From contig NC_009635.1 of the NCBI RefSeq assembly GCF_000017185.1, positions 560,563-624,562 of the forward strand: 64,000 nucleotides of DNA. The letters run 5' to 3'. Positions 6,274 through 56,966 of the stretch are shown here, piece after piece; positions within the stretch are counted from its first letter, which is position 1; the number at the start of each line of letters is the position of its first letter. Source of the DNA: Methanococcus aeolicus Nankai-3. GTDB taxonomy: Archaea; AGJL01; Methanococci; Methanococcales; Methanococcaceae. The translations under genes were made by a program, and so were the position numbers. The notes beneath the pieces are model-generated. The model did no database searches. It was given only the letters and a program-made list of their open reading frames with translations, and was not told the DNA's origin.

Positions 6274-7675
6274 TCTTTTCACCCGACATTATATTCTTAT
6301 TTTTGGCCATACTATATTTTAATTTATCAACTGCATTAATTATGTCTTTATTTTTAATGCCAATAGCCGCGTTCATTACAACATAATCGTATGGGAAATT
6401 TCCCAAATAACAATTTCCAAATTTATCGGAGCTCCTAACTCCCCTCGGACCGGTGATTCTTAAATTATATAATTTACCTGCTATTTCAACAGGGTCTGAA
6501 TTCGTAGTAATGCATATAGATAATGGACTATCAATATTTAAAACTTTGTTATTGGTATTATTGGCAAGTTCGACTAGTAGGTCATGCAATAATTTTCTAC
6601 TTTCTTTCTGCTGTTTCATAAGTTCTTTATAGTTATTTAGTCCAATTGATAACAATGAAACTAGCGTATTCACTATCGGGGTTGCACATGCTCGTCCAGG
6701 ATATGTTTTTGATATTTCATTTATGAATTCTTTATCTTTTGAATAAATTATTCCCCCTCCAATCGGAGTTAATAAATTTTTATCGGAAGAACTTATAACG
6801 GCATCTACCCGATATTTAAATGCCTTTTTTAATCTATCAATATAATATTGATTTTGAATGGCATAGGCACCATTAATAATATGGGGAATATTATATTCTT
6901 CACAAATCTTTGCTATTTCTACGATATCATCACTTTTCCGAGGGGGGAAGAAGGTTAAAGTGCTTAATACACAAGGTATTTCTTTTTTATTATTTATATT
7001 ATATTTAGTAGTATAAATATTGCTGTCCCCATATTTATCATTTTTATTTATTTCTTTTTTTATGGCATTTTCGATATCTTCAACAGGAACGAAGACAGAT
7101 TCACCGTCTTCGGATAGAACCGTTTCAACCAATCTCATTTTTAATCCTGAAAAAGATACGGCTTTTATTGGGCTTTTATGTGCTGCGTATGGATAAATTA
7201 CAGTATTACAACCATATTTTTTTCTTAATGCACTTAAACATAATGATATAGACATGCCTGTTGCTATGGGGGTGGCTATTGCTGAAACATTTAGCCCCAA
7301 TTTTTTTAAGAAACTTGTTAATATGCTATTGGTTAATGAATACATCACACTTGCACCAGGTGCTTTTGGCTGTGGATCGATTAAATTTCCACTTCTTCCC
7401 ACCCCATGACAAAAACCAGAAACTAATCTATTGTGGATATTTGAAGAGGTTCTAGCCTCCCGCTCCCCTATTCTTATAGATTTTGGGTCTTTATCTGTAT
7501 CCATTAAAGATAGTAATTTTAAAAAAAGTTCTATCTCTTCATCACTCATTGCCTGTTTGGGAATTACTCTATGATTAAAAATATCTTCAATATTTTTTAA
7601 ATTATCATTTAATACGAGTTTTCCCCTATTTTCCATATTTTTTGGAATTATTCCACTAATATTTAAATCAATCAT
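6242..7675 (-). CDS. spcS: O-phosphoseryl-tRNA(Sec) selenium transferase (SepSecS)
   Basis: This PLP enzyme converts phosphoserine on tRNA(Sec) to selenocysteine using selenophosphate, the last step of the archaeal/eukaryotic route. The 477-residue product has the P-loop region with GEREARTSS, CHGVGRSGNLIDPQPKAPGAS for phosphate and tRNA recognition, and SSSDKNLLTPIGG with the PLP lysine near residue 299. An Asn/Lys/Tyr-rich insert at about 210-232 makes it longer than usual. Its presence agrees with the selenocysteine-containing FdhA 30 kb away. The ribosome site is weak. The 3' end overlaps minD, an unrelated gene, by 32 bases. Confidence 0.93.
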   Translation of the reverse strand: MIDLNISGIIPKNMENRGKLVLNDNLKNIEDIFNHRVIPKQAMSDEEIELFLKLLSLMDTDKDPKSIRIGEREARTSSNIHNRLVSGFCHGVGRSGNLIDPQPKAPGASVMYSLTNSILTSFLKKLGLNVSAIATPIATGMSISLCLSALRKKYGCNTVIYPYAAHKSPIKAVSFSGLKMRLVETVLSEDGESVFVPVEDIENAIKKEINKNDKYGDSNIYTTKYNINNKKEIPCVLSTLTFFPPRKSDDIVEIAKICEEYNIPHIINGAYAIQNQYYIDRLKKAFKYRVDAVISSSDKNLLTPIGGGIIYSKDKEFINEISKTYPGRACATPIVNTLVSLLSIGLNNYKELMKQQKESRKLLHDLLVELANNTNNKVLNIDSPLSICITTNSDPVEIAGKLYNLRITGPRGVRSSDKFGNCYLGNFPYDYVVMNAAIGIKNKDIINAVDKLKYSMAKNKNIMSGEKNGNNYCNSIR

Positions 7676-51137: not shown

Positions 51138-51438
51138 TTTTAACCGTTAGCCCATATAAACAAATGGTTTATACATATAGACCTTATTTTCTTATTTTAT
51201 AATTTATACGAGATATTAATAGCAATTATGGTTACAATATATTTATACACTAAAATATTCCAAATCATAAACTAAACAATTTTTTCGGAGCTCCCTTTCA
51301 ATTGATTATGATATTAGATTTTCTAATCAAGATATTATCATTAAAATATGTAAAAAGAAAAATATATATAAAATAAAATAACAATATTACCAAAGATATA
51401 ATTATATAGTACATTAAAAAATCTAATAGGGCGATAGA
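51138..51438. other. Gap with promoter of the corrinoid methyltransferase operon
   Basis: AT-rich, no gene. It contains one GGAGCTCC at 51287-51294 and TATA-like runs near 51360-51410 that would suit the promoter of the downstream operon. I see no clear operator. Confidence 0.5.
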
Positions 51439-52095
51439 ATGAGTGCTGAAATTTTAAATAAACTTGCAGAATCTGTTGTAAATCTAGATGAAAATGGAGC
51501 CTTGAATGCAGCGCATGATGCATTAAAAACTGGAATTCCTGCACAGGTGGCCATAATTGAAGGGTTGTGTGAAGGCATGAAATTAGTCGGTAAGAAATAT
51601 GAAGAAAAAGAGTATTTCGTTCCAGAAGTATTAATGGCCTCAAATGCCATGAATAAAGCCGTAGATGTCTTAAAACCACATGTAATAATAGATGAAGACG
51701 ATATTCCTGCTAAGATTGTAATGGGCGTAATTCAAGGAGATATTCATGAAATAGGAAAGAATATTGTAGCAATGATGACAGAAGCAGGAGGTTTTGAAAT
51801 TCATGATTTAGGTAGAAATGTACAGTGTGAAAAATTCGTAGATTATGCCATAGAAAATAACGCAGATATAATCATGATGTCTACAATGATGACAACCACA
51901 ATGTACAATATGAAAAAAGTTATTGGTATTCTGGAAGAAAAAGGTGTTAGGGATAAATTTATAGTAATGATAGGTGGAGGTCCGGTATCTTCTGCTTTTG
52001 CAAAAGAAATAGGTGCAGATGCATATACTGAAAATGCTAACGAAGCGTTAAATGTTGCCAAAGAACTCTATAAAAAACGAAATAATGGACAATAA
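51439..52095 (+). CDS. Corrinoid methyl-carrier protein (MtaC/MtbC type)
   Basis: A 218-residue protein with an N-terminal four-helix cap (residues about 1-90) and a B12-binding Rossmann domain. GDIHEIGKNI supplies the base-off histidine H103, and SxMMTTT and GGGPVSSAFAKEIGAD complete the corrinoid site. In methylotrophic methanogens and acetogens such proteins shuttle a methyl group from a substrate-specific to an acceptor methyltransferase. It leads a five-gene run with three UroD-family methyltransferases and an activator. Which substrate is used is unknown. GGGCGATAGA precedes the ATG. Confidence 0.93.
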   Translation: MSAEILNKLAESVVNLDENGALNAAHDALKTGIPAQVAIIEGLCEGMKLVGKKYEEKEYFVPEVLMASNAMNKAVDVLKPHVIIDEDDIPAKIVMGVIQGDIHEIGKNIVAMMTEAGGFEIHDLGRNVQCEKFVDYAIENNADIIMMSTMMTTTMYNMKKVIGILEEKGVRDKFIVMIGGGPVSSAFAKEIGADAYTENANEALNVAKELYKKRNNGQ

Positions 52096-52109
52096 ATAGG
52101 TGAAAAAAA

Positions 52110-53117
52110 ATGACTCCAAAAGAAAGACTTTTAGGGGCAATTACTGGAAGCGGTATTGATAGAATACCTGCGGCCCCACTTATTGGAAACTTTGCTGGAA
52201 GAATGGCAGGGTATACCGTAAATGAAATTGCAAAAGATGGAACTAAATTGGCTAAATCCTTAGAATACACATACAACATGATTAAACCAGATTTGGTAAC
52301 AATATTAACGGATTTAAGTATAGAAGCTGAGGCCATGGGTTGTGAATTGGAGTATTTTGATAATGATGTCCCAGTAGTTAAAAGGCATGTATCACTCGAT
52401 GAGATATCCATTCCGAATCCTGAAAAAGACGGAAGAATGCCCGAATTTTTAAAATGTATTGAGCATCTTGTGGAAAAAATTGGAAATGAAGTATTTATTG
52501 GAATGTGTGTCCCAGGACCATTTACAATAACGGGAAATGTTCACGGAGCAGAGAGTATGATGATGGATTTGGTAATGAATCCAGATGTTGTTAAAGAGGA
52601 AATAAAACTGGCAACAGAAACCTCAAAATTATTTATAAATGCATGCATGGATAGGGGAGCGATACCTTTAATTTGTGATCCAATAGCATCTGGTTCATTA
52701 ATAAGCCCGAAATTTTATGAGGAGTTTGCACTAAATCCCTCCAAAGAGATTGTAGATGAAATACACAAACGTGGATTACCAGCAGTATTGCATATTTGTG
52801 GGGACTCAAATCCAATACATGACCTTATGGCTGAAACCGGGGCAGATTTTTTAAGTGTTGATGCCAATGTTAATTTAAAAGAAATGAAAGAGAAAGTAGG
52901 TAAAAAAGTAGGTATAATTGGAAATATAGATCCTGGAAGCACCATATACCTTGGAAGTAAGGAAGAAGTCATTAATGAATGCAAAAAGGCAATAGAATAC
53001 GCATCAGACAATCCAAAAGGATTTATTCTTGCATCGGGTTGTGAAATACCATTAGAATCTAAGAAAGAAAATGTAAAGGCAATAGTTGAAGCATCAGAAG
53101 TCTATGGAAAAATCTAG
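52110..53117 (+). CDS. UroD-family corrinoid methyltransferase 1 (MtaA/MtbA-like)
   Basis: A 335-residue TIM-barrel protein beginning MTPKERLLGAITGSGIDRIP. The zinc site H-x-C-xn-C is intact: H228 and C230 in LHICGDSNP and C311 in ASGCEIP, as in coenzyme M methyltransferases MtaA and MtbA. Of the three paralogues it is closest in size and sequence to these, so it is the best candidate for moving the methyl from corrinoid to coenzyme M or another thiol. GGTGAAAAAA precedes the ATG, 14 bases after the corrinoid gene. Confidence 0.9.
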   Translation: MTPKERLLGAITGSGIDRIPAAPLIGNFAGRMAGYTVNEIAKDGTKLAKSLEYTYNMIKPDLVTILTDLSIEAEAMGCELEYFDNDVPVVKRHVSLDEISIPNPEKDGRMPEFLKCIEHLVEKIGNEVFIGMCVPGPFTITGNVHGAESMMMDLVMNPDVVKEEIKLATETSKLFINACMDRGAIPLICDPIASGSLISPKFYEEFALNPSKEIVDEIHKRGLPAVLHICGDSNPIHDLMAETGADFLSVDANVNLKEMKEKVGKKVGIIGNIDPGSTIYLGSKEEVINECKKAIEYASDNPKGFILASGCEIPLESKKENVKAIVEASEVYGKI

Positions 53118-53201
53118 TAAAAATCCGATAAATATTAAGATGTTATTTAACAATACCAACAATTTTAACCATATTTTTTTAAAGATGGATTGGGTGTTTT
53201 T

Positions 53202-54005
53202 ATGACGCCAAAAGAAAGAATTGATAGTGTCCTTGATGGGGGGACCAATATTCCCTCCGTCCCAATAATAAGCCCATATTTTTTAAATCTTTCATTAAAC
53301 AAAGACAAAGAACTGTTTAATTTTCATTTAAATTTATATGAGAGATATAAACCAGATTTAATCACATTAATACATGAAAATGTAAGTTTAGAAATTGAAA
53401 CTTTAAAAATACTGGGAAGGAAAATAAAAGATACATATATAACTGTTGCTTTGGACTGTCCAATATCTTACCTATCTGCAATTGACGATAACTTCATGAT
53501 AAATCTTTATTTAAAAAAAGAAGAAATTCATTCAAAAATGGACAATTATGTGGAATATCTCAAAGAAAATATTGGAATAATTATAGAAAATGAAGGAATT
53601 CCATTTTTAGGAGACCCCACTGCTCCATTCATTGGACCAAAGATGTATGAAGAGTTTGGAATACCCTATTTAAAAAAAATATTTAGATTTATAAAATCTT
53701 ACGGAGCTCCGGTATTTTTACATATATGTGGCGAATTAACTCCAATTATTGACCAGTTGAAAAAATTGGATATCGATGTTTTAAGTTTTGAAGATAGTTT
53801 GGGTGTTGTAGGAGCTCTTGACTGTGTATTGATGGGAAATATAAAGCCTAAGGATATGCTGAATGATTGCATAGACTCTAAAATAAATCAGGTTATAAAA
53901 AATAAGGGAAAACAGCACATAATAGCGACAGGTTGTGAGTTGCTTCCCAATACTCCCGAAAAAAACATTATTAAATTAATTAACTCGAGGGTGGATTATG
54001 ATTGA
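53202..54005 (+). CDS. UroD-family methyltransferase 2, compact form
   Basis: A 267-residue paralogue, about 60 shorter than the first, starting MTPKERIDSVLDGGTNIPSVP. The zinc motif is kept (FLHICGELTP and IATGCELLP), while the segments between the early barrel strands are shortened. It might be a substrate:corrinoid methyltransferase, since the operon has no MtaB, MttB or MtrH-type protein for that step. ATG at 53202 follows TTGGGTGTTTT. Its end overlaps the next gene by eight bases. Confidence 0.82.
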   Translation: MTPKERIDSVLDGGTNIPSVPIISPYFLNLSLNKDKELFNFHLNLYERYKPDLITLIHENVSLEIETLKILGRKIKDTYITVALDCPISYLSAIDDNFMINLYLKKEEIHSKMDNYVEYLKENIGIIIENEGIPFLGDPTAPFIGPKMYEEFGIPYLKKIFRFIKSYGAPVFLHICGELTPIIDQLKKLDIDVLSFEDSLGVVGALDCVLMGNIKPKDMLNDCIDSKINQVIKNKGKQHIIATGCELLPNTPEKNIIKLINSRVDYD

Positions 54006-54942
54006 CATTGAAGAAGAAGTTAAAAATAGAACTTTGATAGCACCAATGGGTGGGTGTTATATTGCAAAACTTTATGGATGCGGTAAGAAGCACCATTTTT
54101 GTAGAAATGGGGAAATTTTTGGTAAAGCACTTTGTAAGGCAAAGGAACATTTTGGCCATGATATTATCCATCTTTCCTCAGATATATATGTTGAAGTGGA
54201 AGCCATGGGATTGTACGATTGGAGCTGTATATCTGAGGGCTATGGGAAGATGGATGAAGATTTTGATTTGGATAGTTTAACGATTGATTTAGATGGTGGG
54301 AGAATTCCCGAATACAGAAAGGCAATTGAATACTGCAACTCAAAAAATAATACGGCATTTGTAAGCGTAAGTGCCCCATTTACTCTTGCAGCAATTCTGA
54401 GAGGCATTGATAGATTTATGATAGATTTAATAAAAAATGAAAAATTTGCTAAGGATTTGATTAAAAAAACTACAGAGATATCCAAAATTGTTATAGAAGA
54501 TATAAATGAGATTGCACACCCTTTTGTTGTTGATGCGGTGTCATCTTCCTCCCTTATTAGTCCAGAATTTTATAGAAAATTTGCTTTTAAACCGATAAAA
54601 AAAGTAATGAAGGCATGTGATTTTCCCATCTTACACATGTGTGGAGACATAAACCCAATATTAGATGATGTTAAAAAAACAGGAACAAAAATTATAAGCT
54701 TTGATGATAATTTAGATATTTCTAAAGCCTTTGAGGCATTTAAAGACTTAATTGTTTTTGGAAATATTGACCCTTCAATGATGTATTATTCAAAAGTAGA
54801 TAAAGTAGAAATGGAAGTAAAGAAATGTATGGAAGCTAAGGGTGGTGATTTCATATTGTCCACTGGATGTAGCCTCCCAGTGGGAGCTCCAAAGAAAAAT
54901 TTAGAGGCGTTAGTGCATTATGGGGGGTGTTATGATGTATAA
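53998..54942 (+). CDS. UroD-family methyltransferase 3
   Basis: A 314-residue paralogue. It lacks the usual MTPKER start and instead has a Cys/His-rich N-terminus (APMGGCYIAKLYGCGKKHHFC). The C-terminal zinc site is intact: ILHMCGDINP and LSTGCSLPVGAP. The sequence is clearly diverged from the other two copies, which suggests a different partner or substrate. Its start ATGATTGA overlaps the stop of the preceding gene, and its own end overlaps the activator start, so translation is coupled through the run. Confidence 0.85.
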   Translation: MIDIEEEVKNRTLIAPMGGCYIAKLYGCGKKHHFCRNGEIFGKALCKAKEHFGHDIIHLSSDIYVEVEAMGLYDWSCISEGYGKMDEDFDLDSLTIDLDGGRIPEYRKAIEYCNSKNNTAFVSVSAPFTLAAILRGIDRFMIDLIKNEKFAKDLIKKTTEISKIVIEDINEIAHPFVVDAVSSSSLISPEFYRKFAFKPIKKVMKACDFPILHMCGDINPILDDVKKTGTKIISFDDNLDISKAFEAFKDLIVFGNIDPSMMYYSKVDKVEMEVKKCMEAKGGDFILSTGCSLPVGAPKKNLEALVHYGGCYDV

Positions 54943-56665
54943 TATTACATACATAAAAGAGGATGGAACTAAAAAATCAATTAAAGTTAAAGAAGGAACC
55001 ACAATACTTGAAGGAGCGATAAAAGCGGGAGTTTATATTGATGCTCCATGTGGAACGGGGAAATGTGGTAAGTGTAAAGTTTTAGTGGAGAAAGGTTTAG
55101 AAAATATTGATAAGGATAGTATTGTGGAAGATGAGTATGCACTGGCATGTGTGGCAAAAGTTTATGGGGACATATCAATTAATGTTCCAAATTTCCAAGG
55201 TGTGGTTTGTAAGGATATCACCAACGAAGTTGGTGAGCTACAAACTCGAAGAGTTTGTTCAATTACCGAACAATGTAAAGGTGAGCTACAAAATCTCGAG
55301 GGATTTCATCCGATGTCTTTAAACCCCGATATTGGAATAAATAAAATTACTACAACAGTATTGGAATCATCTAACTATAACCTAACATTAGATGCAATAA
55401 ATAAGCTTAATTCTATGAAGTTATCGGACGAAGTAACTTTAATATTAAAGGGAGATAATGTCGTTAATGTAGAAAAAGATTTTTCTGGAATTTATGGGCT
55501 TTCAATTGATATTGGGACTACATCTGTTGTTGTATATCTTGTTGATATTTCTAAAGGTATTGTTTTAGATAATATTTCTTTTTTAAATCCTCAGAGGCAG
55601 TTTGGGGCAGATGTTGTTTCAAGAATAGCATACAACAACGGAATTTTACTGCAAAAAACACTTATAACTGAATTAAACGATTCTATATCAAAATTATGTT
55701 CAAACAATAACATAAAAATGGATAATATTTATGAAGTTAGTGTGGTAGGAAACACTGCTATGATACACTTCTTTTATGGAATAGTCCCAAAAAATCTTGC
55801 AACCCATCCTTATGTTCCAACATTTAAAAACTCACCATATCTTCCTGCAAAAGAGTTGGGGCTAAACCTAAGAAACGCATACATTTACACACTTCCGATA
55901 ATAGGAGGTTATGTTGGGGCAGACACAGTTGGAGCAATTTTATCATCTGAAATGCATAAAAAAGATGATATAAGTCTCCTTATAGATATTGGCACAAATG
56001 GGGAAATTGTTTTAGGGAATAAAGAAAAGTTATTAACCTGTTCATGTGCAGCAGGTCCTGCATTTGAGGGTGTCAGCATAGAGCATGGGACAAATGCTAG
56101 AGAGGGGGCAGTATGTAGAGTAAAAATAGATGAAAATAACATATACTATGAGACCATAGGAAATAAAACGCCCCCTATTGGAATATGCGGGTCTGGAATA
56201 ATAGATATTGTAGCTGAATTTTTAAAATCCGGATTAATTAATAAAACCGGTAGATTTACTGGAGAACATAAAAACTTAAAGGAAAATAAATTTATCATTG
56301 AAGATTCTATTTATTTCACACAGGGCGATATTAGGGAAGTACAGCTTGCAAAAGGGGCAATATATGCAGGAATAAAAATTCTCTGTTATGAATATGGAAT
56401 AAGTATGGAAGATATATCTAATGTATATGTTACTGGAGCATTTGGATGTCATATCGATGTTGAAAATGCAAAGATTATCGGACTTTTACCGGATTTGGAT
56501 AATATATTGAGTATTGATAATGCTGCTGGAAGGGGGACTATAATGGCTTTACTATCTAAAAAAATTAGAAATGAAGCCGATAAGTTGGCAAAAAATACGA
56601 AATATATTGAATTAAGTAGTCATGATAATTTTGAAAGTGAGTTCATATCTGCCCTTGGGTTTTAA
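54935..56665 (+). CDS. Ferredoxin-ASKHA reductive activator of corrinoid proteins (DUF4445)
   Basis: A 576-residue protein that restores inactive Co(II) corrinoid to Co(I) with ATP. Residues 1 to about 90 are a plant-type [2Fe-2S] domain (PCGTGKCGKC and ALAC, pattern C-x4-C-x2-C-xn-C); a linker to about 190 precedes the ASKHA ATPase with YGLSIDIGTTSVVVYL, VVGNTAMIHFFYG, LLIDIGTNGEIVLG and GICGSGIIDIVAE. This design is that of bacterial RACo-type activators; methanogen RamA has C-terminal [4Fe-4S] clusters instead. ATG at 54935 is favoured over 54932 by spacing from GGGGGGTG. It closes the operon. Confidence 0.9.
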   Translation: MYNITYIKEDGTKKSIKVKEGTTILEGAIKAGVYIDAPCGTGKCGKCKVLVEKGLENIDKDSIVEDEYALACVAKVYGDISINVPNFQGVVCKDITNEVGELQTRRVCSITEQCKGELQNLEGFHPMSLNPDIGINKITTTVLESSNYNLTLDAINKLNSMKLSDEVTLILKGDNVVNVEKDFSGIYGLSIDIGTTSVVVYLVDISKGIVLDNISFLNPQRQFGADVVSRIAYNNGILLQKTLITELNDSISKLCSNNNIKMDNIYEVSVVGNTAMIHFFYGIVPKNLATHPYVPTFKNSPYLPAKELGLNLRNAYIYTLPIIGGYVGADTVGAILSSEMHKKDDISLLIDIGTNGEIVLGNKEKLLTCSCAAGPAFEGVSIEHGTNAREGAVCRVKIDENNIYYETIGNKTPPIGICGSGIIDIVAEFLKSGLINKTGRFTGEHKNLKENKFIIEDSIYFTQGDIREVQLAKGAIYAGIKILCYEYGISMEDISNVYVTGAFGCHIDVENAKIIGLLPDLDNILSIDNAAGRGTIMALLSKKIRNEADKLAKNTKYIELSSHDNFESEFISALGF

Positions 56666-56704
56666 CCATTATATTTTTATACACTCTTTTATTCACGAAT
56701 CCTT

Positions 56705-56792
56705 CGGCAGAAAGCCCATGACTCCGTAGTGAGCGAAGCTCACGAAGGGCTATAAAATCCTTCGGATTTTGTTCAATTAGTCGTGGGAGTAA
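56705..56792 (+). mobile_element. IS200/IS605-type end relic with nested hairpins
   Basis: CCCATGACT (56714-56722) pairs with AGTCGTGGG (56779-56787), a form common at ends of IS200/IS605 elements. Inside are GTGAGC-GAA-GCTCAC (56729-56743) and AAAATCC-TTC-GGATTTT (56754-56770). No transposase frame is present. It lies in the gap after the corrinoid operon; the rest of 56666-56966 is AT-rich with no gene. Confidence 0.45.
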
Positions 56793-56966
56793 TACAGATT
56801 ATATATTATCTTATAGGTTTTATCCCAATTATAGTAGTTATTAGAAAAAGAGTGGAAACTAATTTATCGTCATTAACTGGGCATCTCAAAGAAGCTCTTA
56901 TAAAAAAATAAAAATTAAGGGCATTTAATATTAATTTAATATATATTAATGTATTATCATATCTAC

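Follow-up and report, generated by a model that had tools for sequence, protein, structure and literature searches.

The 64,000-nucleotide window analysed here, from the genome of the hydrogen-using methanogen Methanococcus aeolicus Nankai-3, contains a predicted corrinoid methyltransfer operon at 51439-56665, whose five genes, identified by their open reading frames and Pfam domains, are all read in one direction on the forward (+) strand. The first gene (51439..52095) encodes a corrinoid (B12-binding) methyl carrier of 218 amino acids (aa), here called CP, which combines the PF02607 (B12-binding_2) and PF02310 (B12-binding) domains with a GDIHEIGKNI motif and scores under all substrate-specific corrinoid-protein cut-offs of NCBIfam. 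It is followed by three genes for UroD-fold (PF01208) methyltransferases, U1 (52110..53117, 335 aa, E 2e-73), the short U2 (53202..54005, 267 aa) and U3 (53998..54942, 314 aa), and by the gene of a 577-aa RACo-type reductive activator (54932..56665), which joins a [2Fe-2S] domain to an ASKHA ATPase (Fer2, Raco_middle and RACo_C_ter). The best choice of start for the activator is 54932, not 54920, and its best PDB match is RACo (3zyy, E 1e-87). The initial annotation, made from the letters alone, had listed this gene set, including the RACo design of the activator, and had described the genes as tightly spaced with overlaps; the former is borne out by Pfam and by alignment with MtaA, whereas overlaps occur at only two of the four junctions, the spacing being +14, +84, -8 and -11 base pairs (bp) in gene order. 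An Rfam search of the window gave no match.

The alignment with MtaA shows that all three UroD-fold enzymes retain an intact H-x-C-xn-C zinc site, formed by H228/C230/C311 in U1, H174/C176/C245 in U2 and H213/C215/C291 in U3, and an acidic residue at the position of the MtaA Glu. The assignment of U1 draws on its zinc columns and its place in the tree as well as on its domain, and its best solved-structure match is MtaA (4ay7, E 4e-33). U2 is shorter by about 65 residues in its N-terminal half, and its AlphaFold model, built on a 34-row alignment, is a confident barrel (pLDDT 91, pTM 0.89) whose best PDB fold match is again MtaA (4ay8). U1, U2 and U3 are the only PF01208 proteins that a whole-genome family search recovers, so that the genome has no HemE. 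Identity with true uroporphyrinogen decarboxylases, which the initial annotation had itself singled out as incompatible with its proposal, was rejected, since HemE scores are at most 81.5 bits against a cut-off of 303 and the zinc triad is present. The proposal of corrinoid methyl transfer is supported, and at least one of the UroD-fold enzymes would have to act on the methyl donor.

In a comparison set of 36 Methanococcales genomes, with the M. aeolicus host as G000, the order CP-U1-U2-U3-RACo is found in three (G000, G033 and G035). Because the cassette is kept gene for gene in the two other genomes, with 76-95% protein identity, its assembly by chance is excluded. The segment shared horizontally with G033 (51305..56693, + strand) consists of the operon with about 134 bp of promoter and 28 bp of 3' flank; its DNA is 92.3% identical between the two genomes (L047), its ends are sharp, and nothing beyond them can be aligned. 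The operon proteins are 90-95% identical to those of G033, whereas 13 other genes of the window have a median identity of 68% and reach 76% at most. The corresponding figures for G035 are 76-87% for the operon and a median of 67% for the background, in which one gene reaches 85%. Identities so far above background, together with the sharp segment ends, indicate that the cassette moved recently as a unit, with its own promoter, between methanogen genera, and the three cassettes sit in three different gene neighbourhoods. The RACo design had initially been taken as a hint of transfer from bacteria; what is found instead is recent transfer between methanogens, whose three copies form a deep branch of their own, and a bacterial origin of the cassette is neither shown nor excluded. 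Directly 3' of the transferred segment lies a short repeat (56690-56800) with a strong fold (z -3.6) and four weaker partial copies in the genome, beside which no complete transposase gene was seen.

The promoter contains an operator-like palindrome, ATTAGATTTTCTAAT (51313..51327, 126 to 112 bp upstream of the CP gene), which recurs in exact copies and contains the core TTAGATTTTCTAA, a T-N11-A box of the form used by LysR-type regulators. A second copy with one mismatch, ATTAAAAAATCTAAT (51413..51427), lies 26 bp upstream of the CP start, and this proximal copy is kept in all three cassettes (at -26, -26 and -23); the exact palindrome is also present in the G033 cassette promoter, at -125. 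The M. aeolicus genome holds three exact copies, one before the operon and two, 111 bp apart, directly before the gene of a 372-aa protein whose best solved match is the double-cubane cluster protein (6eno/7yyl, E 6e-97). This gene is adjoined by one for a BadF-type ATPase (L188:5628-7888; G000:C1:1407627-1409887), after which a phosphate-type binding protein gene follows. Across the 36 genomes, ATTAGATTTTCTAAT has 37 exact matches, almost all of them intergenic, against 2 for the reversed control. Exact copies precede the double-cubane gene in nine genomes (copies with one mismatch in G033 and G035), hdrA and a vhcDGAB-hdrA-fwdB block in two Methanocaldococcus-like genomes (G007 and G014), TusA (G034), ModA- and PhnD-like binding proteins, and a TIM-barrel/PP-loop gene pair that stands next to SepSecS in some genomes.

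In Methanococcus maripaludis, the genes that rise when selenium is depleted comprise frc, vhcDGAB, hdrA, fwdB, sdm, TusAD and ModA/PhnU/PgtC-type transporters, with an increase of 5.6-7.8 log2 for the sdm operon, and the LysR-type regulator HrsM binds the region between frc and vhc (PMC11097638). In G015, which has the same layout as M. maripaludis, a copy with one mismatch lies 58 bp before the selenium-free hdrA and a copy with two mismatches lies between vhc and frc. Furthermore, the double-cubane cluster protein family has been listed as selenium-linked and often occurs within mlp clusters (PMC10418091). The operator-like site is thus shared with selenium-regulated gene types, in a pattern and neighbourhood that fit an HrsM-type regulon. 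This sharing is the main new evidence and points to the operon belonging to the selenium response, and hence to a substrate element that the initial annotation had not considered. No published operator motif for selenium control in Methanococcales was found in the literature searched, and the palindrome is offered as a candidate.

Two groups of genes with nearby palindromes deserve separate mention. In several genomes the palindrome stands directly before the gene pair for an uncharacterised TIM-barrel protein ('LLGVCVRIKN') and a PP-loop-like protein; the pair adjoins apgM and sometimes SepSecS, and may represent selenium genes (L162:6858-8430, L230:7561-9056, L225:10075-11573). In addition, palindromes with one mismatch precede a binding-protein gene of the same type of ABC transporter in G000 and G033 (L190:2131, L138:4127), a candidate selenium-regulated transporter.

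The host genome encodes SepSecS, SelD with an in-frame TGA and tRNA-Sec, and the presence of SepSecS, which serves selenocysteine synthesis, indicates that the host makes selenocysteine. The SepSecS gene lies within the window on the reverse (-) strand (6314..7651; G000:C1:566876-568213; TIGR03531, E 6e-161), 44 kb from the operon and not adjacent to it.

Operons of this kind were already described in 2023. 'Type 1 mlp gene clusters' combine a corrinoid protein and a RACo-type activator with two or three UroD-type Mlps whose zinc site is His-Cys-Cys (Kountz & Balskus 2023, PMC10418091); they are found in more than 100 genera, among which the methanogen carriers are only Methanococcus, Methanothermococcus and Methanotorris. 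Most mlp clusters are linked to methyl-selenium, the minority of clusters termed 'non-selenium' co-occur with MarHDK-like nitrogenase homologues, and one Mlp2 methylates selenide with a low Km (PMC10418091). The best-studied relative is SdmABC, in which SdmB/C are Mlp2 (PMC10418091); deletion of sdmC abolishes the use of dimethylselenide, and the studies of SdmABC and dimethylselenide in Methanococcus voltae are cited in the same paper (PMC10418091). The initial description of an operon of unknown kind and substrate was thus too open, as the cluster type is tied to methyl-selenium and methyl-sulfur, its carrier genera have been named, and the use of dimethylselenide by a relative is supported genetically. 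A methoxy substrate, one of the options named at first, is unlikely, given that each of the three zinc sites is His-Cys-Cys, an arrangement associated with sulfur or selenium rather than oxygen substrates (PMC10418091).

In trees of CP, RACo and UroD proteins, the three-methanogen cassette forms its own branch each time, next to a Sdm/Clostridium branch and a Desulfosporosinus/Anaerosolibacter/Calditrichales branch. This separation speaks against orthology with SdmABC, and the cassette forms a third lineage apart from Sdm and the bacterial clusters; the gene-order search suggested at first recovers the same order in G033 and G035. The activator family is present in nine of the 36 genomes, exactly those with Mlp proteins. 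The Sdm-type order CP-Mlp2-Mlp3-RACo-CobW-MFS-Mlp1 occurs in six and never together with the cassette, although with about 0.5 such genomes expected this exclusion is not significant. A scan of 84,980 species genomes for conserved Mlp motifs, which would miss relatives without the motif and appears to omit genomes near the window, recovered 26 bacterial loci at identities to U1 of 37% or less; in many of them the genes are arranged CP-Mlp2-Mlp3-RACo-...-Mlp1. U1 is nearest to Mlp2-type enzymes (31-37% identity), yet falls outside both Mlp2 clades. The approximately unbiased (AU) test rejects placement in the Mlp3/MtaA clade for U1 (p 0.013) and U3 (p 0.017) but not for U2 (p 0.125), which may be a fast-evolving protein of Mlp3 origin. 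Neither U2 nor U3 has a close relative outside the three cassettes, in searches that did not extend to distant orthologues in other phyla, and the best outside matches of U3 are Mlp2-type enzymes of about 30% identity. The names Mlp1, Mlp2 and Mlp3 follow protein length, gene order and the published placing of SdmB/C in Mlp2 rather than a direct comparison with the C. ljungdahlii proteins. As an Mlp3 could not be demonstrated, the cassette is described as a variant that would work like type 1 mlp clusters and is kept apart from type 1 mlp gene clusters (MGCs) in the strict sense.

Among plasmids, no near relatives of the cassette were found, only remote UroD proteins. A candidate in-frame selenocysteine (Sec) codon of the G033 activator was discarded, as were candidate stops in G015-G017: they reflect only readthrough past the true stop, and the reading frames are intact. 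A frameshift splits the corrinoid gene that precedes a solitary Mlp2-type gene (probably MMJJ_16960) in G015 (L050:5346-6013).

The operon is most likely devoted to Se-demethylation induced by selenium starvation, and not to methylotrophy. That it is a selenium-scavenging methyltransfer system like SdmABC and the type 1 mlp clusters, in a separate lineage, is considered probable, as its gene kinds and His-Cys-Cys sites are those of mlp clusters. Under selenium shortage, a LysR-type regulator similar to HrsM would change its action at the two palindromes, leading to expression of the operon. RACo would use ATP to hold the CP corrinoid as Co(I), and at least one zinc UroD enzyme would bind a methylated selenium compound (e.g., dimethylselenide, methylselenol or Se-methylselenocysteine) via its soft His-Cys-Cys zinc, move the methyl group to CP and release selenide, which may then enter SelD and selenocysteine. 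Another of the three enzymes would pass the methyl group from CP to a thiol acceptor, for which sulfide, homocysteine and coenzyme M (CoM) are candidates. Corrinoid reduction and methyl transfer to a thiol are what the protein families predict, and regulation and relatives together suggest the selenium substrate; the acceptor, the regulator and the division of labour among U1-U3 are inferred. The balance tips slightly towards a broader proposal, according to which a mobile third-lineage cassette, with CP, three Mlp2-side zinc enzymes and no CoM-methyltransferase-like member, brings along a selenium operator of its own and joins the selenium regulon of the host on arrival. In this proposal the same T-N11-A palindrome would serve the selenium regulator as its operator throughout Methanococcales, uniting the operon, the double-cubane protein and the selenium-free isoenzymes.

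Several observations weigh against a selenium role. The sdm promoters contain only copies with two mismatches or no copy at all, and four Methanococcus genomes (L204, L205, L206, L207) have an exact palindrome some 130-150 bp before the proteasome alpha gene, which means either that not every palindrome is selenium-linked or that the regulon is wider, inherited chance being a further option. The match of the palindrome to HrsM is an inference from pattern and neighbourhood. Selenium machinery is present in essentially all 36 genomes, so that co-occurrence cannot separate selenium from sulfur, and U1-U3 are not orthologues of the Mlp2 and Mlp3 enzymes with tested chemistry.

The alternative that survives best, although it is unlikely, is methyl-sulfur salvage, in which methanethiol, dimethylsulfide or methylthio compounds would be demethylated to recover sulfide or methyl groups, as proposed for the 'non-selenium' mlp clusters. 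His-Cys-Cys zinc suits sulfur too, and the nearest enzymes to U1 are bacterial Mlp2 proteins from clusters that hold Cys/Met-metabolism and methionine-uptake-like genes. In addition, of the 36 genomes only the three with the cassette and G034 carry an extra nitrogenase-like HDK island, whose HDK proteins are 98-99% identical between G000 and G033. As some sulfur-type clusters co-occur with MarHDK, the island was tested for likeness to MarDK; however, its HDK proteins match MarDK (9fmg) at 45 bits, below the 77-80 bits for nitrogenase or DPOR, and are thus not MarDK-like by best match. The island is distant from the operon and has no palindrome, so coupling to MarHDK is not supported, while the operon promoter is tied to selenium-linked genes. 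The island (L168:6743-15498; G000:C1:525742-534497; also L169, L170 and L171) further contains a NikBC-type ABC transporter, an S-adenosylmethionine (SAM) methyltransferase and a Gate-domain permease.

A methylotrophic or methyl-reducing side pathway, in which methyl groups would pass to CoM and feed methane formation, is highly improbable. CoM is abundant in the host and U1 is distantly related to CoM methyltransferases (TIGR01463, 204 bits), but no operon protein reaches the MtaA, MtbA, PRK06252 or TIGR01463 cut-offs. Against PRK06252 (CoM methyltransferase, cut-off 244), U1, U3 and U2 score 195, 124 and 89 bits, whereas every one of four Mlp3 proteins from other clusters that were scored exceeds the cut-off (311-493 bits). 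The operon also has no MtaB, MttB or MtmB gene, and growth on methylated substrates is not known in Methanococcales (PMC10418091). Methylotrophic methanogenesis was thus rejected, as no protein is of CoM methyltransferase grade, and the suggestion in the initial annotation that methyl groups feed CoM finds no support in homology. Least probable of all is an O- or N-methyl, halomethyl or other substrate without selenium or sulfur: the UroD-fold family does include O-demethylases and the chloromethane enzyme CdmB (PMC13222342; 9rui), but all three zinc sites are His-Cys-Cys, the regulatory context is selenium-linked, and a chloromethane system was rejected on the marginal similarity to CdmB (E 3e-4).

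With selenium scavenging as the preferred reading, an operon of 'unknown substrate' becomes sharply testable through selenium depletion, named donors and a 15-bp operator, the last being a candidate sequence for selenium control in Methanococcales. What is new is a separate lineage in three of 36 Methanococcales genomes, its recent transfer and a palindrome shared with selenium-linked genes. These findings suggest a horizontal spread of selenium scavenging by corrinoid demethylation among methanogens, and that such scavenging can dispense with the CoM-methyltransferase-like enzyme that the other inspected clusters have.

Among known systems, the chloromethane system CdmBCA (PMC13222342) has in common with the cassette a corrinoid protein and a UroD-fold enzyme, with only marginal similarity. 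RACo/AcsV activators (3zyy) share the [2Fe-2S] and ASKHA architecture over the full length, but the cassette activator scores 400 bits against the AcsV cut-off of 800 (NF040756) and has no CO dehydrogenase context. The soluble CoM methyltransferases MtaA, MtbA and MtsA share the fold and the zinc triad, whereas the cassette enzymes fall under all their family cut-offs and have [ST]GC[ES] in place of PGCG around the last zinc Cys. Type 1 mlp clusters likewise have a corrinoid protein, several His-Cys-Cys UroD-fold enzymes, a RACo-type activator and no H4folate methyltransferase; in contrast to them, the cassette has no identified Mlp3, no Mlp1 and no accessory CobW or transporter genes, all three of its UroD-fold enzymes lie on the Mlp2 side of the tree, although for U2 the Mlp3/MtaA clade is not rejected, and its CP and RACo form the third branch. 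SdmABC (M. voltae; M. maripaludis MMJJ_01650-70, PMC11097638) shares the corrinoid protein with UroD enzymes, a Methanococcales host and selenium-linked regulation, although its CP is only 46% identical and its RACo 36-43%, and the Methanococcus clusters follow the order Mlp2-Mlp3-RACo-CobW-MFS-Mlp1.

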